Assembly: GCA_946186185.1 (NCBI GenBank)
Contig: CAMHMJ010000007.1
Span: 38,266 to 102,265 of the forward strand
Length of the DNA: 64,000 nucleotides
Direction: 5' to 3'
Origin: an uncultured Treponema sp.
GTDB taxonomy: Bacteria; Spirochaetota; Spirochaetia; Treponematales; Treponemataceae
How positions within the stretch are numbered: position 1 is the first letter of the stretch; every line of letters starts with the position of its first letter. The notes under the pieces were generated by a model. The model did not search any database and was not told the DNA's origin. It worked only from the letters and a program-made list of their open reading frames with translations. Below, one piece after another: positions 9,309-44,431 of this stretch. A program made the position numbers and the translations under genes.

Positions 9309-9330
9309 TTCATTATGACAGGGGTTTTAT

Positions 9331-12733: not shown

Positions 12734-13961
12734 TTTCAAATCCTTCAACTGTTTTTACCATAAAGTCCACAGTTCGCTTTCCTGATTCACCGATGTATTC
12801 CCAGGCTTCTTCCCGGGCCTTGTGCCGAAGTGACTTTAATTCTTCGCTGTCGGCAGCGTTCTGGATTACATTTTTAATGTCAGAAAAGTCTTTTTCTTCA
12901 AGTTTTATGCCGATTTTTTTGAGGGTGGAAAACTGCCAGATTTCATGATCCAGATCCCAGGCGTCGTATGGCATTAAATCCATTTCTGCATTGGCATACA
13001 TAACCGGCTTGTCGCAGAGGAAGGTATAGTCCCAGATGATTCCTGAAAAATCGGTAATCATGATGTCTGCTTTCTTAAGGGAATAAATATTGTCCCGCTG
13101 GTAATCCCATTCAATGTTTGGATTGCTTTTGTATTTTTCTTCCAGTGCAGAAAGAACTTCCTGCTCGCTGATTTTTGACTGGGGATGAGGACGGATAATA
13201 ATTTTCCAGCCAGTTTCTGAAAGCGGGGTAAGTAATTTTTCGCCGTAGAGACTTAAGAGCCCTGATTTTCCCCAGGTTGGTGAAACCTGAACCGTAAATT
13301 TATGGTTTTCTTCAGCCGGCAGCGCCTCGATTTTTGATTTAAACACATCAAGGTACGGGCAGCCAACGGTAAAAAGCTCCTTTGCTGGAAGATTTCTCTG
13401 CTTTTCCAGGGCTCTGATGTCCGAGTACTGGTATTCTGCCGTACAGAGAATTGAATCGAAATAGTCAATTCCAAAGAGACGGTACATTGTAGGGTCACCC
13501 AGGGCATGGAAAATATGGGAATAGTGCTTTACGTTCCGGCTTCTTTTAAGCTGGTACACCTGAAGTCCCGGGGTTGTCATAAGAACAAAGCCTGCAGAAA
13601 GCATGTTGAGCTTTGCAAAGGCCTTGTTTCCTTCGCCGATAACTTCCGGATGAACAAACTGGTATTTTTCTTCAAAAACGGGATCCTGTTCTGTGGCAAC
13701 AAAGTATGTCACCTCCAGTTTTCTGTTTTCAAATTCGTCAAGAACCGGTTTAAAAAGATTCCAGTAGCGCTTATCTTCGCAGTAAATTACATATTTTTTG
13801 TAGGACTTTTCAAGCTTTGAAGCATCCTTGCCGCCGGAAAGAAAAAGCTTAATTTTAAGCCAGAGGGCCTTTGCAAGAAAGAAGAGGGTTGCACATGCTC
13901 CAATGAGAATTGAAAAAAGCATGCTTCCTGTTCCCGGGTCAATATATAATGGTAAAATCAT
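12714..13961 (-). CDS. CDP-glycerol glycerophosphotransferase family protein (TagB/TagF-like)
   Basis: A 415-residue member of the TagB/TagF family, which in Gram-positive bacteria transfers glycerol phosphate from CDP-glycerol in wall teichoic acid synthesis. It starts with a membrane hairpin bearing YIDPGTGSMLFSILIG (about 6-35) and a basic SGGK stretch. The catalytic part carries VQVSPTWGKSGLLSLYGEKL, IIIRPHPQSK and MITDFSGIIWDYTFLCDKP, the usual His and Asp motifs of the family. GAGG lies 5 nt before the ATG, and the gene follows the YidC-LtaS fusion by 20 nt. The second TagF-like protein at 27.7 kb has the same N-terminal anchor and the same neighbour. Whether the donor is CDP-glycerol or another CDP-alditol is open. 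Confidence 0.88.
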   Translation of the reverse strand: MILPLYIDPGTGSMLFSILIGACATLFFLAKALWLKIKLFLSGGKDASKLEKSYKKYVIYCEDKRYWNLFKPVLDEFENRKLEVTYFVATEQDPVFEEKYQFVHPEVIGEGNKAFAKLNMLSAGFVLMTTPGLQVYQLKRSRNVKHYSHIFHALGDPTMYRLFGIDYFDSILCTAEYQYSDIRALEKQRNLPAKELFTVGCPYLDVFKSKIEALPAEENHKFTVQVSPTWGKSGLLSLYGEKLLTPLSETGWKIIIRPHPQSKISEQEVLSALEEKYKSNPNIEWDYQRDNIYSLKKADIMITDFSGIIWDYTFLCDKPVMYANAEMDLMPYDAWDLDHEIWQFSTLKKIGIKLEEKDFSDIKNVIQNAADSEELKSLRHKAREEAWEYIGESGKRTVDFMVKTVEGFESEKNSN

Positions 13962-13981: not shown

Positions 13982-16675
13982 TTATTCAGTGACTTTTTCC
14001 CAGCTGGAGTCTTCAAAAATATTATCTTTGACCTTCCACCAGGAATCATCCTTTACAGTAAAAATCTTGTCGCTTTTTGAGTAATATGGCACGAATAAGT
14101 CGTCAATGGTAACTTCAAGACCGTCATTTTTATCAAGATACGGGATTTTGTTTCCTGTAAACGGATTTTTTGGCTCTTCAACAATACCTTTAAGTGCAAG
14201 GGTCGGAACATCGGCATTTGACATAAATGTATTGTCGATTTTAAGGGTGCCCCGTTCATTAAAATCCTTTACTACAAGAATCGGATTCAAATGGCATTTT
14301 GCATATCCGTCAATTTTTTCAGTTTTGAACATTTCTTTTGAAAGAGAATTATTTCCGTTTCCGTGATCGCTTACAAAAATAATTCTGGTGTTGTCGTATA
14401 CATCGTTTTCCTTGAGCCAGTCCAGCCATGAAGAAATTGCGTACCAGGTAACGGTATTTACGATATAAGCCTTGTTTTCATTCAGGAAAGGCTTGCCGGA
14501 AAGAGGAATATTGTACATTGAAACATCCTCATTTGAGTGAGGAGCTTCGTTTGCAAGCATTATAAAACTTGATTTTTCAGAATCCAGGGTGGTGAGGGTT
14601 GGTAAATAGTGAAGCTCGCTGTACCAGTCTGCAAAACTGTTGTAGCTTTCCTGAACTCCGTTTTCCCACCAGGTTCCTTTATAGTAAACTACCGGGCGAA
14701 GCATTGCAGGGGCTTCACGGAAAAGGCTTACCCAGAAAAGATTTCGGTTCAAGAAATGGCTTAAGGAAACATTAGATGAAGAATCCTTTAAAAGCTCCTT
14801 TTTCATGTCTCCGGCGTATCGTCCCATGAGTGACATCGGATGAATGCCTTCCATATTTTTTGCAAAGCTCATGTCGCTTACATAACTGTAGTTTCCCCAG
14901 GAAAGGTCAGCAATATAGGATTCAAATCCCGCTTCCTGAGTAAAAAGCTTTGGAAGAACTAAAAGGGCTTCGTTGTGCTTTTCCTTCAAAGTCTTTTCCG
15001 GAACTCTGTTGATTTCCCTTGGAGTGTATTCGTATCCGCCGTAAAGTCCCGGAGAGCCCATCAGGGTGTGTCCGTTAAAGGAAAGTGTGTTCGGATAGAA
15101 GGTAAAGCCTTCAAACTTTTCCTTAATATCCTGCTGGTCCTCCATAATCTGAAGAAAATTAACGCTTTCCATTCTGTCCAGCATCATGATAACTACGTTT
15201 TTACCGGTTTTGGAAAGGGAAAATTTCTTGCTGAAACCGGAATCAGAAGCCTGATTCTGGGACGCGATGTTGAATTCCCTGTACTGCTTTGAGATTGTAA
15301 AGGAATTTACAACGCTGAAGATGACCATTGTAAAGAAAAGAATTCCGTTTGCGTAAACGCCCCAGGTTCCTTTCTTAAATTTAAGAAGAAATGCAAGACC
15401 TGCAAAAATGGCGCAGATACAGAGAAGATTTAACAAGAGGTAGATTTTTGAAGGGGAAGCAAGACCATCAATGAACTTTAATGTTGCATCCATGGAGCCG
15501 TAATTGCCCTTGAAGATAAAGGCGTTGATTATGGCTGAAATAAAGCCTGCGGTAAACAAAAATGAAAGCAGGGTCTGTATTCTTTCCTTGAACAGGAAAT
15601 ATATACAGAAAGGCCAGAAAACAAAGAGACCGGCACTAACCCAGAAGCTGGATTTAAGGAAGGCTGTTGGCGTAGTATAGCTTTCAATGTTAGAAAACTC
15701 CTGAACTGATGAAAGAATCAGGTTTTCAGGAAGTACGAGTCCTGTAAGGAAGGCAAGTGCAAGGGAAGAAAGGGCAAAAAGTGAAAAACGAAGCTTTTTG
15801 TCGTCCCTGAGGGCAAATGCAACCTTGTCGATAAATGCCTGAACAAGTTTAATATAAACAGGAAGGGGAAGGAGAATAAGAAGGGCAAAGGCAGCAGGGA
15901 GTCTCTTTTTTAAGTCTGCTACGCCTGAATAAATAAATACAATATATACCGCCATAAAAATTACGGAAGCACACATGATTATGTACAGGGTTTTCAGCGG
16001 GTTTTTAAGCTTGTAGAAAATATTTTTAATCAGGCTGAAAACATTGTTCATGGTCCAGTAAAGTACAAGACCTGCCGGACTCTGATATAAAATTACAAGG
16101 AATAACAAGGCCATTCCGTAGATTGGTGCTTTTTCCTTGAAAGAAAATCCTTTTGTGTAGATTGCACTGGCGATTATGTTTATAAGGGTCATTGCAATCG
16201 GAAGAACATTTACAGGAAAGGAACCGATTGTAAATAGTGCATCCGGCCGGCTCATATCCCGGATAAAAAGAAAATGGGCACCGTTTAGTGCAGGAAGCTT
16301 TGAAAGACAGCTGTAGGCCGCCATAAAGAAAGGAACCTGAATTAAAAGTCCAAAGCTGGATCTTAAGGCCATAAGGGGGTGGTAATGATTCTGCTTATAA
16401 AAAGTAGAAAGAATCATGTACTGTTCGTCACCCTTGAAGGTCTTTTTAATGCGGTCAATGCCGCTCTTCATTCTTTTTTGTGTATCCCGTTCTATCTGCT
16501 GCCATTTTTCTGCAACAATGTAAAGGGGAAGGCAGAAAAGTGTTACGCAGAGAGATACTCCAAGAATTGAAATTCCCGTGTTTCCGAAAAGCTTGTCAAA
16601 AAGCTTGAAGGAAATTTCTATCAGCTGAACAAGAGGTGACAGAATTAAATTATAAAGAATCATTCCGATTGTCAT
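13982..16675 (-). CDS. YidC/Oxa1-like domain fused to LTA-synthase/sulfatase-type phosphotransferase, copy 1
   Basis: An 897-residue fusion. Residues 1-220 match the YidC core: ALRSSFGLLIQVPFFMAAY, FIRDMSRPDALF and PAGLVLYWTMNNVFSLIKN align with YidC TM3 to TM6. About 225-475 is further membrane segments. Residues about 490-870 are a sulfatase/LtaS-fold domain outside the membrane: VVIMMLDRM (metal Asp near 500), FNGHTLMGSPGLYGGYEYTP (candidate Thr nucleophile near 537), ANEAPH, and VSDHGNG (Asp-His near 770). By alignment the groove arginine that YidC insertases need is Thr45 here. AAGGA precedes the ATG. LtaS-type enzymes move a phospho-alcohol from a phospholipid; the actual substrate here is unknown. 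A TagF-like gene follows. Confidence 0.88.
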   Translation of the reverse strand: MTIGMILYNLILSPLVQLIEISFKLFDKLFGNTGISILGVSLCVTLFCLPLYIVAEKWQQIERDTQKRMKSGIDRIKKTFKGDEQYMILSTFYKQNHYHPLMALRSSFGLLIQVPFFMAAYSCLSKLPALNGAHFLFIRDMSRPDALFTIGSFPVNVLPIAMTLINIIASAIYTKGFSFKEKAPIYGMALLFLVILYQSPAGLVLYWTMNNVFSLIKNIFYKLKNPLKTLYIIMCASVIFMAVYIVFIYSGVADLKKRLPAAFALLILLPLPVYIKLVQAFIDKVAFALRDDKKLRFSLFALSSLALAFLTGLVLPENLILSSVQEFSNIESYTTPTAFLKSSFWVSAGLFVFWPFCIYFLFKERIQTLLSFLFTAGFISAIINAFIFKGNYGSMDATLKFIDGLASPSKIYLLLNLLCICAIFAGLAFLLKFKKGTWGVYANGILFFTMVIFSVVNSFTISKQYREFNIASQNQASDSGFSKKFSLSKTGKNVVIMMLDRMESVNFLQIMEDQQDIKEKFEGFTFYPNTLSFNGHTLMGSPGLYGGYEYTPREINRVPEKTLKEKHNEALLVLPKLFTQEAGFESYIADLSWGNYSYVSDMSFAKNMEGIHPMSLMGRYAGDMKKELLKDSSSNVSLSHFLNRNLFWVSLFREAPAMLRPVVYYKGTWWENGVQESYNSFADWYSELHYLPTLTTLDSEKSSFIMLANEAPHSNEDVSMYNIPLSGKPFLNENKAYIVNTVTWYAISSWLDWLKENDVYDNTRIIFVSDHGNGNNSLSKEMFKTEKIDGYAKCHLNPILVVKDFNERGTLKIDNTFMSNADVPTLALKGIVEEPKNPFTGNKIPYLDKNDGLEVTIDDLFVPYYSKSDKIFTVKDDSWWKVKDNIFEDSSWEKVTE

Positions 16676-16685
16676 TTTTTATTCC

Positions 16686-17876
16686 TTAGTCCCGTGAGTA
16701 TAAATCCCGGGTGTATACTTTGTCTTTTACATCGTTTAAGTCGTCTGAAAGGCGGTTTGCAAGAATTACATCGCTGATTTTCTTGAATTCGTTAAAATCT
16801 TTTACTACCTTTGAATTAAAGAAATCTTCGCCCTTGTAGGTCGGTTCGTATACAACGACTGTAATTCCCTTTGCCTTTATGCGTTTCATTACGCCCTGAA
16901 TAGAACTCTGGCGGAAATTATCGCTGTTAGCTTTCATGGTAAGGCGGTAAATTCCCACGATTTTCGGTTTTTTTGCAATTATCTGGTCTGCAATAAAATC
17001 CTTTCGGGTGGAATTTGAGTCAACGATGGCCTTTATAAGGTTCTGAGGAACGGAATTGTAGTTTGCAAGAAGCTGTTTTGTGTCCTTCGGAAGACAGTAG
17101 CCGCCGTAACCAAAGCTCGGGTTGTTATAAAAATTACCAATTCTAGGATCCAGACAGATTCCCTGAATGATCTGCTTTGTGCTTAAACCCCGGACTTCTG
17201 CGTATGTGTCAAGTTCGTTAAAGAAGGCAACACGGAGGGCAAGGTATGTGTTTGCAAAAAGCTTAATTGCTTCGGCTTCGGTGCAGTGTGGGAAAAGTAC
17301 TTCAATTTCTTCCGCCGGTTTCAGTGCTCCTTCCTTTAAAAGGGAAGCGAAAACTTCGGCTTTTTCCTTGAGGCTTTCATCGTCCTTCGGATAGCTTACT
17401 ACGATTCTAGAAGGGTAAAGATTGTCGTAAAGGGCGTGTCCTTCCCGCAAAAACTCAGGACTGAAAATCATGTTTTTATAGCCGGTTTCTTCCCTGAGTT
17501 TTTCTGTGTATCCTACAGGAACAGTGGATTTTATTACGACCGTTGCCTTTGAGCCGCTTTCCTTTACTGCCTTCATTACAGCGTCAATGCTTGAAGTATC
17601 AAAGTAATTTTTATCCGGGTCGTAGTTCGTTGGCGTGGAGATTACAATGAAGTCTGCATCTTTGTACGCATTTTTGCCGTCAGTAGTTGCAGTCAGGTTC
17701 AGGTCCTTTGTCTGAAGATATTCTTCAATCTCCTTATCGATAATTGGAGATTTTTTGCTGTTAATTAAGTCCACTTTCTCCGGAAGGATATCAACCGCCG
17801 TTACTTCGTTATGCTGCGAAAGTAAGATAGCGTTTGAAAGTCCTACATAACCTGTTCCTGCAACTGCAATTTTCAT
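16686..17876 (-). CDS. ugd: UDP-glucose 6-dehydrogenase
   Basis: A 396-residue NAD-dependent enzyme that oxidises UDP-glucose to UDP-glucuronate. It is close in length and sequence to E. coli Ugd. It opens with the Rossmann motif [15 protein letters not shown], and has [37 protein letters not shown], the hinge helix segment [18 protein letters not shown] and the catalytic-cysteine segment [24 protein letters not shown] lies 8 nt before the ATG. Together with the UDP-glucuronate 4-epimerase at 20.9 kb it would supply UDP-glucuronate and UDP-galacturonate to the glycosyltransferases of the locus. It lies between the fusion gene and the cytidylyltransferase-PLP gene on the same strand. Confidence 0.95.
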
Positions 17877-17892
17877 AAAATTATTCCTTTAA

Positions 17893-19722
17893 TTATTTGA
17901 TAAATTCTTTGAGAGCATTGATAAGAATGTCATTGTCTTCCCGGTTTCGGATTGCAAGACGAATGTAGCGTTTTTCATCAAAGCAGGTTTTTCCGGTCAA
18001 ATCTTTAATGTAAACGTTTGCTTTTTCAAGCAGGGAAACTGCAAGCTCATCGGAATAATTATCTCCGCTCAATTTGCAGAGAATGAAATTTGCCTGGCTT
18101 GGATAAACCTTAAGGTTTTTAATGCCGGAAAGCTCCTTTATAAAGCGGTTTCTTTCATCTGCAATTGAGTTACATGCGGCAGCATAAACTGAATTGTACT
18201 TCTCGTAAATCTGAAGGTAGTATTCTGCAAATGAGTTGATGTTCCAGATTGTATTTGTCTTTTTGATTGAAGTTACATAATCTGCATCTGCGCTTGCAAG
18301 AATTCCAAGGCGAAGGCCCGGAACTCCGTAGCTCTTGCTGATTGACTTTACAACTACAAGGTTCGGGTATTTTTCAATTATATCCTGTTTTAAAAGTGTG
18401 TAACGGATGTTCTTTTCTGCAAAGTCAATGAAGCTTTCATCAAAGTAAAGGGTAACTCCCAGGTTCTTCAATTCGTCAAGGAGCGAGAACATTTCTTCCT
18501 GCTTTAAGAAATTTCCTGAAGGATTATCCGGATTGATAAGAAGAACTGTTTTTGCACCGCTTTTCTTTACCGTTTCCAGAATGTCTTTTGCAGTATATGA
18601 AAAATCTTTATCCTGTGTATAAAGAGGAACGATTTCTGCATTCTTGAATCGTTCCGGATATTCGTTGAAAGTAGGGTATGGAACCACAACCTTTCCGGTG
18701 AGCTTTTCACCAAGGGAAGCAATGAGCTCTGCGGCTCCGTTTCCAACAACAATGTTTTCCGGAAGAATATTATAGATTTTACCTGCAAGAATGCTCTGTT
18801 CCTGAGCGCCGCTTGGATACTGGGTCAAAAGGGTTTTAAAGCTTGCCGTAAGTTCGTCAACCATTTTCTGCGGCGGGAAATATGGGTTTACAAGGTAGCA
18901 GTAGTCCTTGAGCTGCGGGAAACGCCAGTATCCGCCGTAGCGCTTCTGAAGGCGGGTAAGCTTTTCTTTTCCGGTAGCAAAACGGTTCTCTGCAATTGCC
19001 AGGTCTGCCGGGTCATCGATTTCGTACCATTCTTCCCCGGAAACCTTAAGTCCCTTCAAAACTGAAGAAGAAAGGAAGGAAAGAACCTTTAAAACCTGCT
19101 CGTAATATTCATTTTTTCCGAAGGCCTTCTGATAGGCTTCAAGGAAGGGTACATAGTAGTTCTTTGAGAAGTCCTTTGAGAATTTGTAAATATTTACAGT
19201 CTTGTGGTAATTTTCTGTATGAAGCCAGTCAAAGTGAGCCTTATCAAGAATGCCTGTAATATAGTTATTTTCATCAAGAAGGGTACAGGTTCCGTCCATC
19301 CACGGCTCAAATGGAGAAACAACTGCAAGGTTCGGATCTTTGCTTTCAAGGAGCTGTTTAATGATGGAAGGTTTGTAAATCAGGTCGCTTTCAAGAAGAA
19401 TTGTGTCATCCTGAACCAGCCTGTCACAGGCAAGATAGAGCGAATAGATATTGTTGGTTTTGTCGTAAACCTTGTTTTCAATATATTCAATTTCCATGCC
19501 ATTCAGGTTTGAAGCATTGAACTTGCTTTTTATAAAATCGATAAGAACATCGCCTTTATAGCCCACTACGATTATAAGTTTTTTTATTCCGTTCTGAACA
19601 AGGGATTCGATAGCATATTCAATAAGTGCTTTTCCGTTTACTTTTACCATACACTTTGTTGCGTTTTTAGTGTATCTTCCAAGTCTTTTTCCCATTCCTG
19701 CTGCTAAAATTAAAGCCTGCAT
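17893..19722 (-). CDS. bifunctional cytidylyltransferase (LicC-like) / PLP-dependent HisC-CobD-like enzyme
   Basis: A 609-residue natural fusion. Residues 1-240 are a sugar-nucleotidyltransferase domain of the LicC (phosphocholine cytidylyltransferase) type: LILAAGMGKRLGRYTKNATK, MVKVNGKALIEYAI, LESDLIYKP and EEWYEIDDPADLAIAE. Residues about 265-609 are a fold-type I PLP enzyme: VGNGAAELI, LLINPDNPSGNF, LYFDESFIDF, the Schiff-base segment VVKSISKSYGVPGLRLGIL, and IRLAIRNREDN. The PLP part most resembles CobD (threonine-phosphate decarboxylase) and HisC. A decarboxylase or aminotransferase making a phospho-amino-alcohol, then its CDP derivative, is a reasonable inference. It is comparable in logic to PntC of Treponema denticola, a cytidylyltransferase fused to a transaminase. 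GAGG sits 5 nt before the ATG. Confidence 0.88.
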   Translation of the reverse strand: MQALILAAGMGKRLGRYTKNATKCMVKVNGKALIEYAIESLVQNGIKKLIIVVGYKGDVLIDFIKSKFNASNLNGMEIEYIENKVYDKTNNIYSLYLACDRLVQDDTILLESDLIYKPSIIKQLLESKDPNLAVVSPFEPWMDGTCTLLDENNYITGILDKAHFDWLHTENYHKTVNIYKFSKDFSKNYYVPFLEAYQKAFGKNEYYEQVLKVLSFLSSSVLKGLKVSGEEWYEIDDPADLAIAENRFATGKEKLTRLQKRYGGYWRFPQLKDYCYLVNPYFPPQKMVDELTASFKTLLTQYPSGAQEQSILAGKIYNILPENIVVGNGAAELIASLGEKLTGKVVVPYPTFNEYPERFKNAEIVPLYTQDKDFSYTAKDILETVKKSGAKTVLLINPDNPSGNFLKQEEMFSLLDELKNLGVTLYFDESFIDFAEKNIRYTLLKQDIIEKYPNLVVVKSISKSYGVPGLRLGILASADADYVTSIKKTNTIWNINSFAEYYLQIYEKYNSVYAAACNSIADERNRFIKELSGIKNLKVYPSQANFILCKLSGDNYSDELAVSLLEKANVYIKDLTGKTCFDEKRYIRLAIRNREDNDILINALKEFIK

Positions 19723-19854
19723 CTTTACCTCTCTATTGTAGAATATCTACTATACAATATATTTTAAACACTTTCTGTCTTTAAGGTCAATAAGGCGCGA
19801 ATTCCGGATACCACGAAGGGAACCCTGAAACATTTAACGGCGCCCTGAAACCAC

Positions 19855-20850
19855 CTATCGCTTCAGTTTTTTTCCGATTGACCTTAAAAAGGCTGCCTGA
19901 CCTTCCATTATTTTAAACAGGAAGGGAAGCTTTGCCTTTATGTCAGCGATTGTGAATGTAAGCGGTGACTGCATTATATCCACGATTCTTCTGTCATTTA
20001 TCAGGTGAACATAGTTGAACTGAAATTTAGGGTCTAAAATCATGTTCTGTATGTCTTCCGGAATGCTGCCGGCTTTCTTTATGCGGTTCTGAAGGGTTTT
20101 ATCAGCCAGCTTGTAATAAGGAACATAGTTTTTTCCGCTGAACTCGCTGGAATAATAGTGAATGATTTTAGCTTCCTTAAGAAACTGAAGACCGCCGTGG
20201 CTTACCTGGCAGTTCCATTTTCCGTCCAGATGACCCATTTTAAGGCCTGTCCTGAAGTTTGCTTCGTTCAGGGCGCTCTGGTCGTGAAGGTCGTGCTTTT
20301 TGTAAGCAGAATATTTCCAGACTTCATTCCAGGTTTTAAAAAGGGAGCGGGATTCTTCTCCTTCTTTTGCAAGAATGATACCTCCGTTTATGTTTAAGCC
20401 GGCTTCCTTTGTTCCCTTAAAGCCCAGCTTTTTATCTCTTTTAAGAAAGTAATTTTTGTGAATGTGCTCATCTAAAAGGCAGTGAGCGTCAAGAATACCT
20501 GCGGTGGCGAAGGGCTCGTTTTCAATTTCTGAAAGATCGTCGCAGATGATTGTATCGCAGTCGATGTACAAAAAAGAGCCTTCAACATAATCAGGAATTG
20601 CAGTTTTTATGAGGCGGCTTCTTTCTACATTCGTAACCTTATCTTCAAAATCTATGCTTACAATACGGCTTGCGTATTTGTAAAGCTCAACTCTTTTATT
20701 TTCCGGCGTAAAGGAAGCCTTGGTTTTATCGTCAACTAAAACGATTATTTCTGCAGCCCTCATGTGCTGTCTTAGTGACCAGACGGACATAAGGCACTGC
20801 TCATAATATAAATCCTTTGGTGTAGAGGTCAGAACATATACATATTTCAT
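19855..20850 (-). CDS. GT8-like glycosyltransferase
   Basis: A 331-residue GT-A fold glycosyltransferase. MKYVYVLTSTPKDLYYEQCL is followed by the DxD metal site in GSFLYIDCDTIICDDLSEI (about 95-115), INGGIILAKEG, and HDQSALNEANF, all in the order seen in family 8 glycosyltransferases and related stealth-type transferases. Such enzymes work at the cytosolic face and use UDP-sugars. It ends 132 nt before the fusion gene and starts 2 nt after the epimerase stop, so it is probably co-transcribed with the epimerase. UDP-galacturonate or UDP-glucuronate could be its donor given the neighbours, but this is inference. Confidence 0.82.
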   Translation of the reverse strand: MKYVYVLTSTPKDLYYEQCLMSVWSLRQHMRAAEIIVLVDDKTKASFTPENKRVELYKYASRIVSIDFEDKVTNVERSRLIKTAIPDYVEGSFLYIDCDTIICDDLSEIENEPFATAGILDAHCLLDEHIHKNYFLKRDKKLGFKGTKEAGLNINGGIILAKEGEESRSLFKTWNEVWKYSAYKKHDLHDQSALNEANFRTGLKMGHLDGKWNCQVSHGGLQFLKEAKIIHYYSSEFSGKNYVPYYKLADKTLQNRIKKAGSIPEDIQNMILDPKFQFNYVHLINDRRIVDIMQSPLTFTIADIKAKLPFLFKIMEGQAAFLRSIGKKLKR

Positions 20851-20852
20851 GG

Positions 20853-21920
20853 TTATCTATTATAATATGTTTTATACCACTTGGCAAATTCGCCTAATCC
20901 CTGCTCTAAGGTAGTTGAAGGTTTGAAGCCGAAATCTCTTTCAAGCTCCGTAACATCGGCATAGGTCTGGTAAACATCCCCCGGCTGCATCGGAAGCAGC
21001 TCTTTCTTTCCAGGTTCTTTAATAATGCCTTCTTTTATAAGGCAGTTTTCAAGGATTTCAACAAAGTTCATAAGGCTTGAAGGCTTGTTGTTTCCGATGT
21101 TGTAAACCTTGTAAGGCGCTCCGTCTTCGGTTTCTTCCGGAGTTTTCTGCATTACATTAACAATACCCGTTACAATGTCGCTTACGAAGGTAAAATCCCG
21201 GTACATGTCTCCCATATTGTAAATCTGAATCGGTTCACTCTTTACCAGCTTGTTTGTGAACTTAAAATATGCCATGTCCGGGCGGCCCATAGGTCCGTAC
21301 ACCGTAAAAAAGCGTAAGCCCGTGCTTGGAATTTTATACAGCTTTGAGTACGCGTGGGCAAAAAGCTCGTTGGATTTTTTTGTAGCGGCGTAAAGGGAAA
21401 CCGGGTTATCAACCTTGTCTTCAGTGGAATAAGGCACCTTTTTATTGGAGCCGTAGACGCTTGAAGAAGAAGCATAAACAAGGTGCTCCACAGGCTTTTC
21501 CGTTCCCATGGTAGCGCGGCAGGCTTCAAGAATATTGTAAAAGCCGATTATGTTTGAATGAATGTAACTTTCCGGGTTTGTTATTGAATACCGGACCCCG
21601 GCCTGGGCTGCAAGGTTTACCACAACAGAAGGATTGTACTCGGCAAAAATGTCGTCGATGAAGGCTTTGTCGGCAATGTCGCCCTTTATAAAGGTGAAGG
21701 AAGATTTTCCGCTTTCCTTCTGGTTTATGGAAGCGGCGGTTTCTTCCAGCATTTTAAGGCGTTCTTCCTTTAAGGAAACATCGTAATAATCGGTGATGGA
21801 ATCGATTCCGATGATTTTAATTTCCTTTACACTTTCAAGAAGCCGTTTGGTAAGAAAGCTTCCGATAAATCCGGCCGCTCCAGTTATGAGTATTGTTTTT
21901 CCTTCTAAAGTTACTTTCAT
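20853..21920 (-). CDS. UDP-glucuronate 4-epimerase (extended SDR)
   Basis: A 355-residue NAD-dependent epimerase of the extended short-chain dehydrogenase family. It has ILITGAAGFIGSFLTKRLL, the catalytic Tyr-Lys in VSLYAATKKSNELFAHAY, and FFTVYGPMGRPDMAYFKFT plus YRDFTFVSDIVTGI. This combination is typical of UDP-glucuronate 4-epimerases, which interconvert UDP-glucuronate and UDP-galacturonate. GGGAG lies 6 nt before the ATG. The gene is followed closely by the GT8-like gene and shares the region with ugd, which makes its substrate. Specificity is inferred from these motifs and the presence of ugd. Confidence 0.9.
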   Translation of the reverse strand: MKVTLEGKTILITGAAGFIGSFLTKRLLESVKEIKIIGIDSITDYYDVSLKEERLKMLEETAASINQKESGKSSFTFIKGDIADKAFIDDIFAEYNPSVVVNLAAQAGVRYSITNPESYIHSNIIGFYNILEACRATMGTEKPVEHLVYASSSSVYGSNKKVPYSTEDKVDNPVSLYAATKKSNELFAHAYSKLYKIPSTGLRFFTVYGPMGRPDMAYFKFTNKLVKSEPIQIYNMGDMYRDFTFVSDIVTGIVNVMQKTPEETEDGAPYKVYNIGNNKPSSLMNFVEILENCLIKEGIIKEPGKKELLPMQPGDVYQTYADVTELERDFGFKPSTTLEQGLGEFAKWYKTYYNR

Positions 21921-22012
21921 TTTTTACTCCCGCTAAGTGAAACAACCTTCTTTAAATTACGAAAAAAGGCGGTGTTTCCAGAATATCTCTTTTTCGATTT
22001 TCTAATGTCCTG

Positions 22013-24805
22013 TTATTTCAGTCTGTCCCAGCATTCATCCAGGAAGATATTGTCCTTTACGGTGTACCATTCTTCTTTTTTTACATCGAAGGTCTTTTCT
22101 TTCCTGATTCGTGTGCTCTGTGCCCTGGAATTGTTCAGGATTGTATAATCGTTTTTGTTCTGAACTTCAAGTTCCTTTCCGGTGAAAGGACTTTTTGCAT
22201 TATCGATAATGTCCTTAGTTGCCAGATAAGGCGCATCCGCGTTGGTCATAAAGGTGTGGTCGGTCTTGATTTTTCCGTGGGCATTAAAATCCTTTACCAG
22301 AAGGGAAGCTACAAAAAGGGTTTTTGTAAACGGAATTTTTTCCGATGCCTTAAGGTTCTGGATTACTTCCTGTGCCGCTCCGTGAAGGTCATTGGCCATT
22401 CCGTGATCTGACACAATGATGATTCTTGTATTGTCATATACATCGTTTTTCTTAAGATAATCAAAAAAATCATTAAGGCGGCTGAAAATTCCGCACATTG
22501 TACTGAATTCCGGGTTTTCCTTAAGGAAGCTGTTTCCAAGGTTTGTAATGTCCTTTTCTTTCCTGAAATCAAATTCCGGCGCCTGAAGGAGTGTAGGTTC
22601 GTGAGTTGCTTCATTATCAAGGAGAATCAGGTTTCCTTTTCCTTCTTCAATTTTTGTAAGTTCCGGCAGGTAATCGATTACAGAATAGTTGTCGATAAAC
22701 CGGGCGCTGTTGTCCCACTTGTTGTAGGCCATCCAGTAATCCCTGTGGTATACGACGCCCCTTAAGGATGGATGAACCATTTTGAATAGAGAGAACCAGA
22801 AGAAATTCCTGAAAATCAGGGAACTTATGTAAGGCTCTTTTTCCATATTGTGCTGGGCGTACCAGTAGTTGGTGTAGGTGGCCAGCACCTTGTTGTGACG
22901 GATTGCTTCGTGGTCTTTGTATTTTACGATATAGGAAATATCGCTTAAATCTTCCCGTGATTCAACTTCAATTCCGTAACGTTTCAAATCCGGATTATCA
23001 AAATACATATTGCTTTCCGGCTGTTCAAGGTAGTTTTCATAGGGAAGGTTTGCTACCTCTGCCGTAAAGCCGTTTTGTGTGAAAATTAATGGAAGGGATA
23101 GAAGAGCTTCGTTGTGCTTGTCCTGAAGGGTTTTCTCCGGCTCTTCCTTTGCCCGCTGGTTCATTCTGTAAGGTGTGTAATCGTATCCTCCGAAAAGGCC
23201 AGGAGTTCCAATCATGGTAAGCTTTCCCATGGAAATTGAGTTCGGATAGTAAGTAAAGCCGTCAAAATCCTCGCTTAATCCGGGAATTTCTTCAAAAACG
23301 TATGGAACGAAAGGTGAAAAGCACCTGTCCTGCATGATAAAAATTACATTGGGCTCAGTTTTTGAAAGGTGGAAGATTGGTTCCAGCTCATTGTCGTAGG
23401 AAGGCACGCTCATTTTTGCGAATTCTGAATGAATTCTTGCGGAGTTTTTAATTCCCAGGGCTCCCGTTGACAAAAGAATGATTACAAGAAGTGACTGAAG
23501 GATTTTTGGAAATTTTATCGTAAGGAAAATGACCAGGGAAAATACAAGAAGCGCTGCAATTGTGCTTGAAAGAAACAGTCCCTTTGACGGAGAAAGATTT
23601 TGTGGCTGCATGAACTCAAACCATGGTTCTATAGGACCGTATTTTCCTCCGAAGATGAAGGTGTTTATAACTGCAAGGGGAGTGATTGTGCAGAATATAA
23701 CCGTCAGGGCTTTTTTTATTCTTGAAGAGAAAAGGGCGTAGATTGCTCCTGCCCACATCAAAAAGAAGCCTGCACTCTGGAAAAGAGTAGAAATGATAAA
23801 TACTGACGGAGATTTATAGCTGTCCACATAGCAGTAATTGTTCACTTCGCTTTCAATAATAATTGATGGTATTGCAAAGCCGGCAAGTACCGTAAGTGAA
23901 ACGGCGGCCGTGTAGAAAAGAAGACAGCGTGCTTTTTTATTTTCATCAAGGAATTTAAAGTGAGAGTCGAGGAATTTTGCTATTCCCATGACTGCAAAAG
24001 GTATCAGCGGAAGAACAAGTCCTGCAAGGAATATTGCTTTTCTGAAAGCGCCTTTTTTTGTGGCAAGAAGGGTAAATGGCGCGATAAGACAGAAAGCGGC
24101 AAAAATGCAGAGAATTATGTAGAGAACTTTCTTAGGCTTTTTAATCTTATAGAAAATATTTTTTACAAGGGAGAGAATGTTATTCATTGTCCAGTAGACT
24201 ACAAGTCCGGCTGGTGAATTGTAGAGAACCACAAGGAATATCAGGGCAAAGGCGTAAATCTGAACCTTTTCTCTGAGGGGATGTCCTTTTGAGTAAACAA
24301 AGCCGGAGACGCAGTTTATGAGTGTCATTGCAATAGGAAGAACGTTTACCGGAAGGGAACCGATAAAAAAAGTATTGTCCGGAGCACCAAAATCTTTGAT
24401 GAATAAGAAACTTACGCCTTTTAAATCTCCCAACTCAGACAAAAAACGGTATGCGGCAAGGAAAAAAGGAATCTGAATTAAAATTCCCAGAGCTGAGCGC
24501 ACTGCCATAAGGGGATTGTAGCCCATCTGTTTATTGTAGGCAGAAAGCATCATGTAGCGCTCATCACCACGGAATGCTTTTTTTATGCGCTCTGTGCGGA
24601 AGGCCATATTTTTTTGAATTTCCCGCTCTTTTTCCTGCCAGCTTTCGGCTACCATGTAAAGCGGAAGGGTACACAAGGTAACGGCAAAACTTAAGCCGAT
24701 TACGGCAACCGCTTCCTTGTCCGTTGCTTCATATAAAAACTGATAAAAGAATTCAAGAAGTTGTGAAATCGGGTAAATAATCAGATTATAAAAGAAAGAT
24801 CCCAT
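22013..24805 (-). CDS. YidC/Oxa1-like domain fused to LTA-synthase/sulfatase-type phosphotransferase, copy 2
   Basis: A 930-residue paralogue of the fusion at 14-16.7 kb, with the same domain order. The YidC-like part (1-220) shows LGILIQIPFFLAAYRFL, FIKDFGAPDNTFF and PAGLVVYWTMNNILSLVKN. The groove position is Thr43. More membrane segments follow to about 475. The phosphotransferase part has IFIMQDRC (Asp near 493), GKLTMIGTPGLFGGYDYTP (Thr near 530), DNEATH and VSDHGMAND (Asp-His near 800). Unlike the other two copies it has no TagF-like gene after it on its own strand. It stands head to head with copy 3 across a 169-bp repeat-containing gap. There is no clear ribosome site upstream. Confidence 0.88.
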   Translation of the reverse strand: MGSFFYNLIIYPISQLLEFFYQFLYEATDKEAVAVIGLSFAVTLCTLPLYMVAESWQEKEREIQKNMAFRTERIKKAFRGDERYMMLSAYNKQMGYNPLMAVRSALGILIQIPFFLAAYRFLSELGDLKGVSFLFIKDFGAPDNTFFIGSLPVNVLPIAMTLINCVSGFVYSKGHPLREKVQIYAFALIFLVVLYNSPAGLVVYWTMNNILSLVKNIFYKIKKPKKVLYIILCIFAAFCLIAPFTLLATKKGAFRKAIFLAGLVLPLIPFAVMGIAKFLDSHFKFLDENKKARCLLFYTAAVSLTVLAGFAIPSIIIESEVNNYCYVDSYKSPSVFIISTLFQSAGFFLMWAGAIYALFSSRIKKALTVIFCTITPLAVINTFIFGGKYGPIEPWFEFMQPQNLSPSKGLFLSSTIAALLVFSLVIFLTIKFPKILQSLLVIILLSTGALGIKNSARIHSEFAKMSVPSYDNELEPIFHLSKTEPNVIFIMQDRCFSPFVPYVFEEIPGLSEDFDGFTYYPNSISMGKLTMIGTPGLFGGYDYTPYRMNQRAKEEPEKTLQDKHNEALLSLPLIFTQNGFTAEVANLPYENYLEQPESNMYFDNPDLKRYGIEVESREDLSDISYIVKYKDHEAIRHNKVLATYTNYWYAQHNMEKEPYISSLIFRNFFWFSLFKMVHPSLRGVVYHRDYWMAYNKWDNSARFIDNYSVIDYLPELTKIEEGKGNLILLDNEATHEPTLLQAPEFDFRKEKDITNLGNSFLKENPEFSTMCGIFSRLNDFFDYLKKNDVYDNTRIIIVSDHGMANDLHGAAQEVIQNLKASEKIPFTKTLFVASLLVKDFNAHGKIKTDHTFMTNADAPYLATKDIIDNAKSPFTGKELEVQNKNDYTILNNSRAQSTRIRKEKTFDVKKEEWYTVKDNIFLDECWDRLK

Positions 24806-24847
24806 GGTTTTAGTCTATTCAAAATGGAGAAAAATTACAAGGGAAGG

Positions 24848-24930
24848 GAGGGAATTGTGTAAGCGAGGGAATTGTGAAGCAGGGAATGCTGCAGAATCTG
24901 GCGCAAACAAGTTGAATCTGGCACAAACAA
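24848..24930 (+). repeat. two short tandem repeats between divergent fusion genes
   Basis: Two back-to-back copies of a 16-17 bp unit (GAGGGAATTGTG then AAGC, with one extra T in the first copy) occupy 24848-24880. Two copies of a 17-bp unit (GAATCTGGCGCAAACAA and GAATCTGGCACAAACAA) lie at 24894-24910 and 24914-24930, 20 bp apart. They fill the shared promoter region of copies 2 and 3, so they could be binding sites or simply slippage duplications. Confidence 0.6.
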
Positions 24931-24974
24931 AATTCCTTGTTGTACCGTGCAAAAAAAAATGATATAGTTTTACC

Positions 24975-27701
24975 ATGTTATCAGTTTTGTATACGATAAT
25001 TATCTATCCTTTGTACCAGATTGTTGAACTGGTTTACAGAGTCTTTAATTCGGTTTTTAACAATACCGGTATTTCCATCGTAGGTGTAAGCATTGTAATT
25101 ACTCTGCTTTGTCTTCCATTATATAATGTTGCTGAAAAATGGCAGGAGATTGAACGGGATACCCAGAAGAAAATGGCGTATCGTGTTCAGCGGATTAAGC
25201 TTGCTTTTAAAGGCGACGAAAGATACATGATGCTTTCGGCCTATAACCGCCTTATGGGTTATAACCCGCTGATGGCTCTCCGTTCTTCCTTTGGTATACT
25301 TATTCAGATTCCCTTCTTTATTGCGGCCTATAAATTCCTTTCAACAAATCCTGATTTACAGAATAAATCATTTCTGTTTATAAAAAATATGGGGGAGCCG
25401 GACAACCTTTTCCATATCGGAAAATTCGGAGTGAACGTTCTTCCGATTCTGATGACTGCAATCAACATTGCGGCAGGTGCCATCTATACCAGGGGCTTCA
25501 GGTTCAAGGATAAGCTTCAGGTGTACGGTATGGCACTGGTTTTCCTGGTGCTGCTTTACGGTTCTCCTGCGGGTCTGGTATTTTACTGGACCATGAACAA
25601 TGTTTTTTCCCTTGTAAAGCATATTTTTTACAAGCTTAAAAATCCCCTTAAGAAATTTTACATACTCTGTGCCGCTGTATTTACGGCCGGCGTTGTCTAC
25701 CTTCTTATAAAGCGCTTTGAAAGAGTAACAATCCTGATTCTTCTGGATCTGCTTCTGCTTTCTCTTTCTTTCCTGATTAAGCTTGTTAAAAGATTTTTCG
25801 GCGGAATGTTCCGATCTATTATTGAAGAAAAAAATCTGAGCGCTTCAGTTTTCTGGCAGACTTCCATTGCCCTTGCGTTTTTATGCGGAATCGTAATTCC
25901 GTCCCTGCTGGTGGTTTCTTCCACCCAGGAATACTGCTATCTTGAAGGCTACGCAAATCCACTTTACTTCCTGTACAACAGCTTTTTACAGGCGGTGGGC
26001 TTCTTTGTTTTCTGGCCGGTCTGCCTCTATTACCTTTTCAATAAAAAGGTGAAGGCAGTTATGGCCTTCGGCTTTTTTGCCTGCTTTGTTCTGGGTGTAA
26101 TAAATGCTTTCTGCTTCCAGGGAAATTACGGCGTAATTTTACCGGAGGTTGTCTTCAGCGAGCATAAAACCTTCTTCCCGTCAAAGCCGGAGTTTTTTGC
26201 AAACATGCTGACTCTTGCGGCGGTTTCTGCTCTGATAATCTTCCTGTTTTACAGGAAGCTTTACCGGGTAATTACACTCTGTTCGACAATCTGTTTAGCC
26301 TCCGTGGTGCTGATTTCCGTATTCAACCTTTCACGGGTTGGTTCATTTTTCAAAAAATACGAAAAGCCTTCAGAGCAGCTTACTGAAACCGACAAAATTG
26401 TAAATCTTTCAAAGACCGGAAAGAACGTTGTTGTAATCATGATGGACCGTTCCACCGGCTTTGTAATCGACCCGGTTTTTGAAAACCGTCCTGAACTTTA
26501 CGACCAGTTTGATGGCTTTGTAAAATACCCGAATACTGTTTCCTTCGGCTTCTGGACAATTCAGGGTGCTGTGTGCCTTTACGGCGGCTATGAATATACT
26601 CCATGGGAGATGAATCACCGCCGTGAGCTACCTATGGTGGACAAGCACAACGAGGGGCTTTCCCTTCAGGCAAATATTTTTGCAAACAACGGCTACAAGT
26701 GTACCGTTATGGATCCTCCGTACCCGAATTACGACAAGCCGCCGGTTTCGAAGGCTTTTGACCAGCTTCCGAATACCAGCTTTTATCAGTGTATCGGCCG
26801 CTATTCAAGTCTGTGGTACCAGGAGCACGATTTCCCGATTATTCCAATCCGAAGCAATCTGATTAAGCGAAACTTTATCTGGTTCAGTTTCTTTAAGATT
26901 TCCCCCATGATTCTTCGTCCGGTAATTCATTACAAGGAATTCTGGGGAGCAGAAAAGGGCGCCGGCGGACAGGATGTTTCCCATTTCATCGACAATTATT
27001 CGATTCTGGAATATCTTCCGCGGCTTACAAATTTCAATAATGAAGAAAACTGTTTTGTCATCATGGATAATGAGATTGCCCATGACTGGGTTTTCACCCA
27101 GCTTCCAGATTTTACTCCGTCACTTGAACTGAAGAACACGAAAGACAGCGGCTGGTTTAATAAGAAAATTTTCCATGTAAACTCAGCAGGCTATTTAATG
27201 CTTGGAAAATGGTTTGACTACTTAAAGGAAAACGGCGTCTGGGACAACACCAGAATCATCATTGTTGCTGACCATGGCGCAAATGAACGGGTTAAGGCTT
27301 CTTTTGATGAAAGCCCCCTTCCAAGAACCATTGAAAGCTACAACCCGGTTCTTATGGTAAAGGATTTTAATGCCAAAGGCAGGCTTCATGACGATTTTAC
27401 CTACATGACTCACTCTGATGTTCCGTCCATTGCCTTTGAGGGGCTGATTGAAAATCCGGTGAATCCGTATACAGGAAAGGAAATCAAAAAACTTACCGTT
27501 GAAGAAAAAAATGAGCGATCAGTTATTTCTTTAAGCGGTGCAAACTCGGTAAATAACACGGTAAATAACGGCTACAGAATCAAGGATTCGGACTGGTATA
27601 CCGTTCACGATAATATTTTTAAGGCTGAAAACTGGAAACACGAAATGCCTGAATACAAAACAGAAGCAGAACCGCTTCTCTCTGGAGATAAAAATGAATA
27701 A
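24975..27701 (+). CDS. YidC/Oxa1-like domain fused to LTA-synthase/sulfatase-type phosphotransferase, copy 3
   Basis: A 908-residue paralogue, divergent from copy 2. The YidC-like part has ERDTQKKMAYRVQRIKLAFK, FGILIQIPFFIAAYKFL, FIKNMGEPDNLFHIG and PAGLVFYWTMNNVFSLVKH, with Thr43 where YidC has its groove arginine. Membrane segments continue to about 470. The outer domain has VVVIMMDRS (Asp near 491), FGFWTIQGAVCLYGGYEYTP (Thr near 528), DNEIAH and VADHGANERV (Asp-His near 766). The C-terminus runs 8 nt into a TagF-like gene, so the two are translationally linked, mirroring the arrangement of copy 1. The function is presumably transfer of a phospho-substituent on the outer face of the inner membrane; substrate not known. 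Confidence 0.88.
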   Translation: MLSVLYTIIIYPLYQIVELVYRVFNSVFNNTGISIVGVSIVITLLCLPLYNVAEKWQEIERDTQKKMAYRVQRIKLAFKGDERYMMLSAYNRLMGYNPLMALRSSFGILIQIPFFIAAYKFLSTNPDLQNKSFLFIKNMGEPDNLFHIGKFGVNVLPILMTAINIAAGAIYTRGFRFKDKLQVYGMALVFLVLLYGSPAGLVFYWTMNNVFSLVKHIFYKLKNPLKKFYILCAAVFTAGVVYLLIKRFERVTILILLDLLLLSLSFLIKLVKRFFGGMFRSIIEEKNLSASVFWQTSIALAFLCGIVIPSLLVVSSTQEYCYLEGYANPLYFLYNSFLQAVGFFVFWPVCLYYLFNKKVKAVMAFGFFACFVLGVINAFCFQGNYGVILPEVVFSEHKTFFPSKPEFFANMLTLAAVSALIIFLFYRKLYRVITLCSTICLASVVLISVFNLSRVGSFFKKYEKPSEQLTETDKIVNLSKTGKNVVVIMMDRSTGFVIDPVFENRPELYDQFDGFVKYPNTVSFGFWTIQGAVCLYGGYEYTPWEMNHRRELPMVDKHNEGLSLQANIFANNGYKCTVMDPPYPNYDKPPVSKAFDQLPNTSFYQCIGRYSSLWYQEHDFPIIPIRSNLIKRNFIWFSFFKISPMILRPVIHYKEFWGAEKGAGGQDVSHFIDNYSILEYLPRLTNFNNEENCFVIMDNEIAHDWVFTQLPDFTPSLELKNTKDSGWFNKKIFHVNSAGYLMLGKWFDYLKENGVWDNTRIIIVADHGANERVKASFDESPLPRTIESYNPVLMVKDFNAKGRLHDDFTYMTHSDVPSIAFEGLIENPVNPYTGKEIKKLTVEEKNERSVISLSGANSVNNTVNNGYRIKDSDWYTVHDNIFKAENWKHEMPEYKTEAEPLLSGDKNE

Positions 27702-29019
27702 TATGTTTTTACTTTACATTGACCCGGGTACGGGAAGTATGCTTTTTTCTCTTTTTATAGGACTTGCAGCAGCATTAACCTTCGGACTCAGGGCTTTATT
27801 CATGAAAATAAAGTTTTTCCTTTCCGGCGGAAAGGCTTCAAAGACCGAAAGCGATAAAATTCCCTTTGTGATTTTTTCTGACCACAAGCGTTACTGGAAT
27901 GTTTTTAAGCCCATCTGCGACGAGTTTGAAAAGCGGGGAGTGGATCTGGTTTACCTTACTGCGAGCCCGGACGATCCTGCATTAACCGCCGGATATCAGC
28001 ATATTAAGGGGGAATATCTTGGTGAAAACAACAAGCCTTATGCACGGCTGAATATGCTCAATGCCGATATCGTGATTTCTACAACCCCGGGACTTGGGGT
28101 TCTTCAGTGGAAGAGAAGTAAGGGCGTAAAGCTTTATGTTCATGTTCCTCACACAGTTGATGATTTGTCAGGTTACCGCATGTTCGGTCTTGACTACTAC
28201 GATGTTGTTCTTACCACCGGCCAGAACCAGATTGACTTGATTCGTAAAATCGAAGAGCTTCGGCCTGCAATTGCAAAAAAAGAGCTTGTAACTGTAGGTT
28301 CTCCAAATCTTGACGCAATGAAGGCCCGGCTTTCAGAAGAGTCGTCAAAAGCATCTTCAAAACTGCCGGACAGGGAACCTTCAAATGTGTCTGCACTGGG
28401 AACTGGTGAACATGCTGACGCATCAAATGCTGCTGATGGTTCAGGCGAAAAAAATAGCGGCAAGAAAACTGTTCTTGTGGCACCAAGCTGGGGCGTAAGC
28501 GGAATTTTAAGCCGTTACGGAGAAAAGCTTCTGGATTCCCTTTCTAAAACTGACTTTAATGTAATTGTTCGTCCTCATCCTCAGACAGTTGTAAGCGAGC
28601 AGAATATTTTAAAGCCTCTTGAAGAAAAGTATCAGAATATCGAATGGAATTACGATAACGATAACTTTTCAGTTCTTGATAAGGCAGACCTTCTTATCAC
28701 AGATTTTTCCGGCATTATCTTTGATTATTCACTTGTTTTTGATAAGCCTCTGATTTATGCAGATACAAACTTTGACACTCTCCCATACGATGCAGACTGG
28801 CTTTCTGAACCGATGTGGTCTTTCCGGGTGCTTCCAAGACTTGGTCTTCAGCTAAAAGAAGAGGATTTTGATAAAATCGGAAGCATAATAAATCAGGCAA
28901 TTGAAAGCAAAAATCTTCAGGAAGGTAGAAATGCCGTTCGCGCAGAATGCTGGGAACACCAGGGCGAATGCGCAAAGCGGATTACAGACTACCTTCTTGA
29001 AAAACAGAAGAATCTGTAA
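27694..29019 (+). CDS. CDP-glycerol glycerophosphotransferase family protein (TagB/TagF-like)
   Basis: A 441-residue second TagB/TagF-like enzyme. It has the same N-terminal anchor as the 12.7-kb copy (LLYIDPGTGSMLFSLFIGLA, FLSGGKASK). Catalytic motifs are VAPSWGVSGILSRYGEKLL, VIVRPHPQTVVSEQN and LITDFSGIIFDYSLVFDKP. A 45-residue Ser/Ala/Asn-rich insert (about 212-258), absent from the other copy, interrupts the region before the first motif. GGAG sits 6 nt before the ATG, and the gene overlaps the fusion by 8 nt. Its stop codon is only 1 nt from the convergent DltD-like gene, leaving no room for a terminator. It presumably polymerises or adds glycerol phosphate, or another CDP-alditol, on the cytosolic side. 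Confidence 0.88.
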   Translation: MNNMFLLYIDPGTGSMLFSLFIGLAAALTFGLRALFMKIKFFLSGGKASKTESDKIPFVIFSDHKRYWNVFKPICDEFEKRGVDLVYLTASPDDPALTAGYQHIKGEYLGENNKPYARLNMLNADIVISTTPGLGVLQWKRSKGVKLYVHVPHTVDDLSGYRMFGLDYYDVVLTTGQNQIDLIRKIEELRPAIAKKELVTVGSPNLDAMKARLSEESSKASSKLPDREPSNVSALGTGEHADASNAADGSGEKNSGKKTVLVAPSWGVSGILSRYGEKLLDSLSKTDFNVIVRPHPQTVVSEQNILKPLEEKYQNIEWNYDNDNFSVLDKADLLITDFSGIIFDYSLVFDKPLIYADTNFDTLPYDADWLSEPMWSFRVLPRLGLQLKEEDFDKIGSIINQAIESKNLQEGRNAVRAECWEHQGECAKRITDYLLEKQKNL

Positions 29020-31559: not shown

Positions 31560-31561
31560 GA

Positions 31562-31783: not shown

Positions 31784-31809
31784 TTTTATCTCCAAATTCT
31801 GTTTATAAA

Positions 31810-42136: not shown

Positions 42137-42558
42137 AAATTGCAATTGGTGCAGATCACGCAGGCTTTGAGTATAAGGCAAAATTGATTGATTATCTTGT
42201 TTCTAAAGGACATGAGGTTATAAATGTGGGAACCGATACAGCAGATTCTGTTGATTATCCGGTTTATGCAGATAAAGTGTGTGAATGCGTTACACAAAAA
42301 CTTTGTGATACAGGAATTCTTATATGTGGTACTGGTATCGGCATGAGCATGGCTGCAAACAGACACAGGGGAATTCGTGCAGCAGTTTGCGGAGATTTAA
42401 AATCTGCTGAATTTACCCGTCTTCATAATGATGCGAATGTTCTTTGTATGGGAGCCCGCATTATCTCTTATGAACTTGCACAGGAAATTACTGAAAAATA
42501 CCTTACTACGGATTTTTTAGGCGGTAAGCATAAAAATCGTATTGATATGTTCAATTAA
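42133..42558 (+). CDS. rpiB: ribose-5-phosphate isomerase B family
   Basis: A 141-residue RpiB/LacAB-family isomerase. GADHAGFEYK holds the Asp-His pair, ILICGTGIGMSMAANRHRGI has the catalytic Cys, and LHNDANVLCMGARI completes the signature, so all usual catalytic residues are present. RpiB interconverts ribose-5-phosphate and ribulose-5-phosphate in the cytosol. GAGGAG precedes the ATG, which overlaps the cytidylyltransferase stop. Linked to a TarI-like gene it could supply ribulose-5-phosphate for a pentitol phosphate, though no TarJ-type reductase is recognisable next to it. Its 3' end overlaps the convergent LicD gene by 8 nt. Confidence 0.92.
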   Translation: MKIAIGADHAGFEYKAKLIDYLVSKGHEVINVGTDTADSVDYPVYADKVCECVTQKLCDTGILICGTGIGMSMAANRHRGIRAAVCGDLKSAEFTRLHNDANVLCMGARIISYELAQEITEKYLTTDFLGGKHKNRIDMFN

Positions 42559-43465: not shown

Positions 43466-43516
43466 GTCATATCCATAAAAAAATTACTTCCCAATCCAAA
43501 TTTTACACTTTTTATA

Positions 43517-44428: not shown

Positions 44429-44431
44429 TTT

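Follow-up and report, generated by a model that had tools for sequence, protein, structure and literature searches.

YidC-like proteins fused to an LtaS-type enzyme, with a TagF-like partner: a candidate system for decorating spirochaete surface glycans

It is largely unknown which enzymes attach small groups with phosphorus to the sugars of the cell surface. Family PF04464 comprises enzymes that build a phosphodiester onto a hydroxyl; transferases of the AlkP type shift such a group from a lipid to an acceptor via a Thr ester. In GtrABC glycosylation systems, lipid charging is done by GtrB, flipping by GtrA and the outer transfer by GtrC. Here, we analyse a stretch of 64,000 nucleotides from an uncultured Treponema sp. 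(assembly GCA_946186185.1, contig CAMHMJ010000007.1, positions 38,266 to 102,265 of the forward strand; hereafter the window), in which three genes encode YidC-like proteins fused to an LtaS-type membrane enzyme (the fusions) and two further genes encode a TagF-like partner. With regard to phosphonates, the covered parts of PMC6697681 describe the Pnt pathway of surface glycans or lipids. There, the formation of cytidine monophosphate (CMP)-2-aminoethylphosphonate is characterised, including PntC of Treponema denticola, while the later steps are termed enigmatic and LicD-like enzymes are pointed to. The words 'YidC' and 'sulfatase' are absent from its main text.

We propose, with a probability of about 0.42, that the fusions and the TagF-like partner form a three-component system by which phospho- or phosphono-alcohol groups (e.g., phosphoethanolamine or 2-aminoethylphosphonate) are attached to surface glycans. 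The partner would first load a membrane lipid of the inner leaflet, with a CMP-linked compound as donor of the group and the hydroxyl of the lipid as acceptor. The polar head group would then cross to the outer leaflet through the groove of the YidC-like part, and the outer domain of the fusion would take the group onto its Thr, free the lipid and hand the group to the surface polysaccharide. This chemistry would fit because the PF04464 and AlkP-type families are known for such reactions. By analogy, the sharing of tasks between charging of a lipid in the cytosol, flipping and transfer on the outside would resemble that of GtrABC, with the differences that a phospho- or phosphono-alcohol would be moved instead of a sugar and that all three protein families differ.

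All three fusions share one architecture. Fusion 1 (P0001; 13982..16675, minus strand; 897 residues), fusion 2 (P0002; 22013..24805, minus strand; 930 residues; without directly adjoining partner gene) and fusion 3 (P0003; 24975..27701, plus strand; 908 residues) are the three paralogous open reading frames (ORFs) already reported in a first-pass annotation of the window. In fusion 1, a YidC-like core (residues 1-225; 16001..16675, minus strand) is followed by linking helices, a five-helix LtaS/PbgA-type membrane part (residues 293-475) and an AlkP-superfamily domain (residues 486-897; 13985..15220, minus strand). Sequence and AlphaFold model together predict 12 membrane helices and an external position of the catalytic domain.

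Profile searches assign the N-termini of fusions 1-3 to PF02096 (60KD_IMP/YidC) with E-values of 2.8e-22, 3.9e-22 and 1.9e-19, i.e., with 79.9, 79.4 and 70.7 bits given a curated cut-off of 35. The sulfatase-fold part is matched weakly, with PF00884 above cut-off in 1/3 fusions and PF01663 at the cut-off in another. The AlphaFold2 model of fusion 1 (mean predicted local distance difference test, pLDDT, 90.6; predicted template modelling score 0.81) matches solved structures in both halves, such that the pairing of a YidC/Oxa1 core with an LtaS-type domain proposed in the first-pass annotation stands. That is, the N-terminus with its five-helix core and cytosolic hairpin resembles E. coli YidC (3wvf; 197 columns, 26% identity, root-mean-square deviation 4.2), and a fold search relates the C-terminus to LtaP, LtaS, PbgA/YejM and many sulfatases. 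With LtaS/LtaP and PbgA/YejM, the C-terminal half has in common both the AlkP superfamily and five membrane helices of its own, although identities are 9-14%, PbgA is aligned from residue 290 with high deviation, and the fusion carries a complete YidC-like core plus linking helices in front. A homologue search yielded 3480 matches at E ≤ 1e-3; the best 120 of these are all full-length (891-909 residues), and weaker matches beyond them may include ordinary YidCs. Some fusion copies (L047 in genome G070, L094, L106) are split into two or three ORFs, reflecting either decay or draft errors.

The unit reaches past the fusions (13982 to 27701), to which the first-pass annotation had confined it: the fusions were right, but the partner genes and the CMP-donor genes were missed. 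One partner gene (12714..13961, minus strand; 415 residues) lies 20 bases downstream of fusion 1, the other (27694..29019, plus strand; 441 residues) overlaps fusion 3 by 8 bases, and the model of the latter consists of one helix and a GT-B fold (pLDDT of the partner model 88.0). Both score above the PF04464 cut-off of 22.1 bits (50.4 and 37.3), where the match covers just the C-terminal half, and PF04464 is matched by no other gene of the source genome. By sequence, Cps3D, TarL and TagF are the solved structures closest to the partner, and because we let this sequence match decide, the partner is classed as TagF-like; in a fold search, TagF and TarL trail the top by no more than about 1 to 3 Z units. 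The partner differs from these CDP-alcohol (CDP, cytidine diphosphate) phosphotransferases in its co-occurrence with the variant YidC and in an additional N-terminal YxDPGxGS motif, which is invariant in 40/40 aligned members of the partner subfamily (in the window YIDPGTGSM, codons 13920-13946 and 27715-27741) and is followed by one helix and the GT-B domain. In some partners, a signal-peptide-like stretch (identified by eye) precedes the motif, which would place YxDPGxGS outside and the enzyme part inside; this topology is also what we predict from sequence and AlphaFold model.

We compared the occurrence of both components among 296 spirochaete genomes, where a genome was considered positive for a best E < 1e-30 in the fusion/variant-YidC search (a definition that takes in the two split genomes G092 and G183). 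PF04464 is present in 65/68 positive genomes vs. 18/228 negative ones (Fisher p about 1e-44, kinship ignored). In one fusion-negative genome with a PF04464 match (G111), the respective gene reaches just 52 bits with the partner profile and its start is without the motif. A partner that appeared to lie 254 kb from any fusion in a Brachyspira-like genome (G072) was rejected as a counterexample, since a fusion was found adjoining it.

The two genes are also physically linked. For 83 of the 95 PF04464 matches in positive genomes, i.e., leaving out the 12 high-scoring ones, 51 are at most 2 kb and 70 at most 10 kb from a fusion, while 11 are on another contig; these distances are upper bounds, measured to the fusions among the matches listed. 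From 107 variant-YidC ORFs, 86 are fused and complete, and 65 of them offer 1.4 kb on both sides. A partner lies at most 400 bp away for 35/65 of these testable fusions; it shares the strand of the fusion in 34 cases and overlaps it in 23. When considering whole loci (79 kept from at least 588 stretches), the partner is found in 53/79 fusion loci vs. 1/40 random regions, which were drawn from 14 contigs, all in variant-positive genomes; the one positive region overlaps a fusion by chance. In one array, four fusions are accompanied by one partner (L051), which is the single PF04464 match of that genome (G212). This suggests that the fusions share a donor while their acceptors differ, such that a single partner could be enough for several of them.

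With regard to the donor, genes for CMP activation of phospho- or phosphono-alcohols (all seeds) occur in 28/79 fusion loci vs. 0/40 random regions, a figure that is tilted toward our proposal because several donor seeds were taken from such loci. Relatives of a nucleotidyltransferase/2-aminoethylphosphonate-aminotransferase are found in 8/79 fusion loci and 0/40 random regions, and PepM alone in 8/79 fusion loci. Phosphoenolpyruvate (PEP) mutase scores above cut-off in 23/68 variant-positive vs. 13/228 negative genomes; in these 23 genomes, it is at most 5 kb from the partner in 13 cases and on another contig in three. Within the window, a nucleotidyltransferase (NTP_transf_3) fused to a CobD/HisC-like pyridoxal phosphate (PLP) enzyme is encoded between fusions 1 and 2 (17893..19722, minus strand), and our guess from its sequence is that it may make the CMP-activated phospho-alcohol. 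Its relatives (above 200 bits) are present in 9/79 fusion loci and in 0/40 random regions. A third, HisC-like type of nucleotidyltransferase-PLP fusion (661-689 residues), which differs from both the CobD-like and the 2-aminoethylphosphonate type, lies beside fusions at five loci (L068, L081, L111, L118, L125) and may make another donor.

Outside spirochaetes, fusion, partner and phosphonate genes are found together in Photobacterium and Azohydromonas isolates. Photobacterium sp. Ph5 and Azohydromonas caseinilytica G-1-1-14 each show one fusion with a partner in the stretch examined. In the former, a 2-aminoethylphosphonate importer (PhnS2 above, PhnT2 and PhnU2 below cut-off) stands between a glycerol-3-phosphate-cytidylyltransferase-like gene, which scores below cut-off, and the fusion, and the partner comes last. 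The order in Azohydromonas is PEP mutase (above cut-off), aminotransferase, nucleotidyltransferase, fusion and partner. The module resembles the Pnt pathway in that relatives of its CMP-2-aminoethylphosphonate genes adjoin fusion and partner. The source genome (G000, 93% complete) differs from that pathway, since it contains no match to TIGR02320 (PEP mutase). A phosphate ester, perhaps phosphoethanolamine, is therefore the likelier group there, and our guess is that such an ester is what is moved in the source organism.

Fold, conserved residues and gene context support the first-pass suggestion that the fusions may add a phospho-substituent at the surface, as far as sequence and models allow. 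The same observations have to be weighed against a more conventional scheme, which we consider possible but rather unlikely. Here, the outer domain would act like LtaS or EptA on phosphatidylethanolamine or phosphatidylglycerol, the partner would separately act in the cytosol like TagF/TarL and attach phospho-alcohols to a polymer carried by a lipid, and the YidC-like domain would hold or present the acceptor polymer. The fold match to LtaS/LtaP/PbgA agrees with it, as do the polymerases Cps3D, TarL and TagF as nearest solved relatives of the partner and the LicD and TarI-like genes of the polysaccharide locus. It leaves unexplained, however, the tight co-occurrence of fusion and partner, the recurrence of CMP-phosphonate genes beside them, and single partners with up to four fusions.

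Our proposal of a joint system also draws on loci where its parts are encoded separately. At L036 and L037/L052 (the latter two being one contig, HGW-Spirochaetae-5), three genes follow each other in the order standalone variant YidC, partner, and membrane plus sulfatase protein; the sulfatase of these split forms is from another lineage, without match to the fusion's domain at the threshold used. Genome G222 shows a partner and two split-type membrane plus sulfatase proteins at a contig end, where no YidC was seen. Treponema putidum (L055) has full fusions and, in addition, three consecutive genes for a partner, a variant YidC of 221 residues and a membrane plus enzyme protein of 664 residues. 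A break after the membrane part, possibly an assembly error, is seen in a metagenome-assembled genome (MAG; L085) of T. brennaborense. Proteins fused in some lineages and adjacent in others are a classic sign that the parts work together. We rejected the idea of a spirochaete-only invention, because a search for the same domain order elsewhere, as suggested in the first-pass annotation, recovered fusions in the Azohydromonas and Photobacterium isolates as well as in MAGs labelled Lachnospiraceae and Ruminococcaceae (labels that may reflect mis-binning). Truncated matches labelled Sumerlaeota (L069) and Tannerellaceae (L086) were not relied on.

The YidC-like part is the best-conserved region of the fusion. 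We aligned 81 fusions (3 from the window, 11 of the best 120 homologues and 67 of 85 complete locus fusions, with MAGs labelled Bacillota and two isolates of Pseudomonadota among them) and counted columns conserved to at least 90%, namely 56/225 in the YidC part, 5/260 in the middle and 34/412 in the enzyme part. YidC/Oxa1 proteins carry a basic residue in their groove, i.e., Lys in 23 and Arg in 4 of 27 canonical YidCs from this and related spirochaetes. The respective position (Thr45 in fusion 1, codon 16541-16543) is Thr or Ser in 152/152 fusions and Thr, Ser, Asn or Gln in 81/81 of the wider set. The fusions thus share PF02096 and the 3wvf fold with YidC/Oxa1, but lack the basic groove residue, narrowly miss NCBIfam TIGR03592 (82.7, 83.7 and 82.7 bits vs. 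a cut-off of 84.3) and continue at the C-terminal tail into a second membrane enzyme. Since the YidC part is strictly kept while the charge of an insertase is lost, this domain probably serves something other than the ordinary insertase role.

One such use is suggested by E. coli YidC and further insertases of the Oxa1 family. According to the covered parts of PMC10491306 (cited in PMC7618853), they act as lipid scramblases in vitro, and simulations place the scrambling along the insertion path; because of these reports, we assign the groove a putative role in passing the head group. The first-pass view that the YidC-like part may handle a lipid-linked substrate is therefore kept, and can be sharpened by the lost groove residue, the TagF-like partner and the split genes. 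Database names, as far as given among the matches listed, are membrane protein insertase YidC for the fusions and LTA synthase family or sulfatase-like for separate enzyme parts; the former are probably surface-decoration enzymes. Two side observations concern YidC in other contexts: the consulted part of a B. hyodysenteriae genome paper places a yidC among ATP/ADP translocases (PMC2650404), and YidC is listed in the consulted part of PMC7868338 among proteins co-precipitated in E. coli with MCR-1, an AlkP-type phosphoethanolamine transferase, which we do not use as evidence.

Instead of a lipid, the YidC-like domain might handle protein, inserting or folding the enzyme's own helices or the short outer N-tail of the partner (YxDPGxGS plus one helix). 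Membership in the YidC family by profile and fold speaks for such a dedicated insertase, and a short N-tail before one helix is a YidC-type substrate. We nevertheless regard it as improbable, given that the basic groove residue is lost in 81/81 fusions, that the same genome encodes a separate canonical YidC elsewhere (an open frame of 614 residues), that the YidC-like part has no free C-terminal tail, and that several partners with a signal-peptide-like stretch still co-occur with the variant YidC.

Finally, we evaluated the catalytic site. Within the 81 aligned fusions, Asp500, Thr537, Asp770 and His771 (numbering of fusion 1) are present in 81/81 and His713 in 80/81, such that Thr and metal-site residues are intact, in agreement with the conserved Asp, Thr, His and Asp-His-Gly positions described in the first-pass annotation. 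These residues were equated with those of LtaS by pattern; when we attempted to align Thr537 with LtaS residue by residue, the matched stretches spanned just the region before and around Asp-His-Gly. The first metal ligand is Asp in the fusions and Glu in LtaS. Formylglycine sulfatases carry the motif C/S-x-P-x-R. A Thr in place of the formylglycine Cys/Ser would favour transfer of a phospho-group, judged from LtaS/EptA chemistry. A sulfate-ester hydrolase with a YidC-like anchor acquired by chance is thus hardly credible, since, even though PF00884 is named sulfatase and sulfatases rank level with LtaS by fold, the nucleophile position is Thr in 81/81 fusions, the YidC part is the best-conserved one and the domain order recurs outside spirochaetes.

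Several observations weigh against the three-component system we propose. The p-value of the co-occurrence is without kinship correction, and three variant-positive genomes (G159, G171, G175) have no PF04464. No partner is found within 400 bp for 30/65 testable fusions, nor in the stretch examined for 26/79 fusion loci (8/43 among stretches of at least 12 kb). In the fold search of the partner, UDP-GlcNAc 2-epimerases, tied with TagF, and glycosyltransferases rank first. With regard to the donor, 51/79 loci show no donor gene by the seeds used, some of which themselves stem from such loci; 45/68 variant-positive genomes, including the source genome, are without PEP mutase above cut-off; and the PLP part of the enzyme at 17893..19722 reaches 180.5, below the CobD cut-off of 290.55. 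Furthermore, lipid scrambling by YidC in vitro need not equal a cellular role.

The window is largely one surface-polysaccharide locus with an initiating sugar transferase, glycosyltransferases, a flippase, a Wzi-like protein and LicD, IspD/TarI-like and Dlt-like genes. Three LicD-family genes are located at 42551..45238 (minus strand) and two IspD/TarI-like cytidylyltransferases at 39519-40235 (minus strand) and 41423-42136 (plus strand). The Dlt-alanylation-like set at 29021-34612 comprises MBOAT, an AMP-binding enzyme, a PLP decarboxylase-type protein and a protein of 331 residues without Pfam match, which suggests that the same polymer is decorated with aminoacyl groups. At 7422-11580, the glycosyltransferases are adjoined by two large ORFs (628 and 749 residues) that have no Pfam match up to E 1. 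A DUF3990 protein is encoded inside the locus (36273-36920), and a zinc uptake set (ZIP, ABC-3 and ZnuA genes) is found at its edge (47112-50207).

Our literature search, which covered few subscription papers, found no description of the fusion or of the trio of parts. A more far-reaching interpretation, which we consider doubtful at present, is that a YidC-fold protein was turned from an insertase into a lipid head-group flippase and became part or neighbour of a surface transferase. TagF-like charging of a lipid from CMP-activated phosphonate or phosphate, YidC-like flipping and LtaS-like transfer would then make up a new three-component machine that supplies the missing late steps of bacterial phosphonate tailoring. 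If our proposal is true, the steps that follow CMP-2-aminoethylphosphonate, termed enigmatic in the covered parts of PMC6697681, would gain candidate enzymes in the fusions and partners. Fusions and partners would also provide a genetic handle on spirochaete surface glycans bearing phosphorus. Furthermore, they would represent a case of a YidC-fold protein with a dedicated lipid role, such that the in vitro scrambling by the Oxa1 family, as given in the covered parts of PMC10491306, would become testable in a physiological setting.

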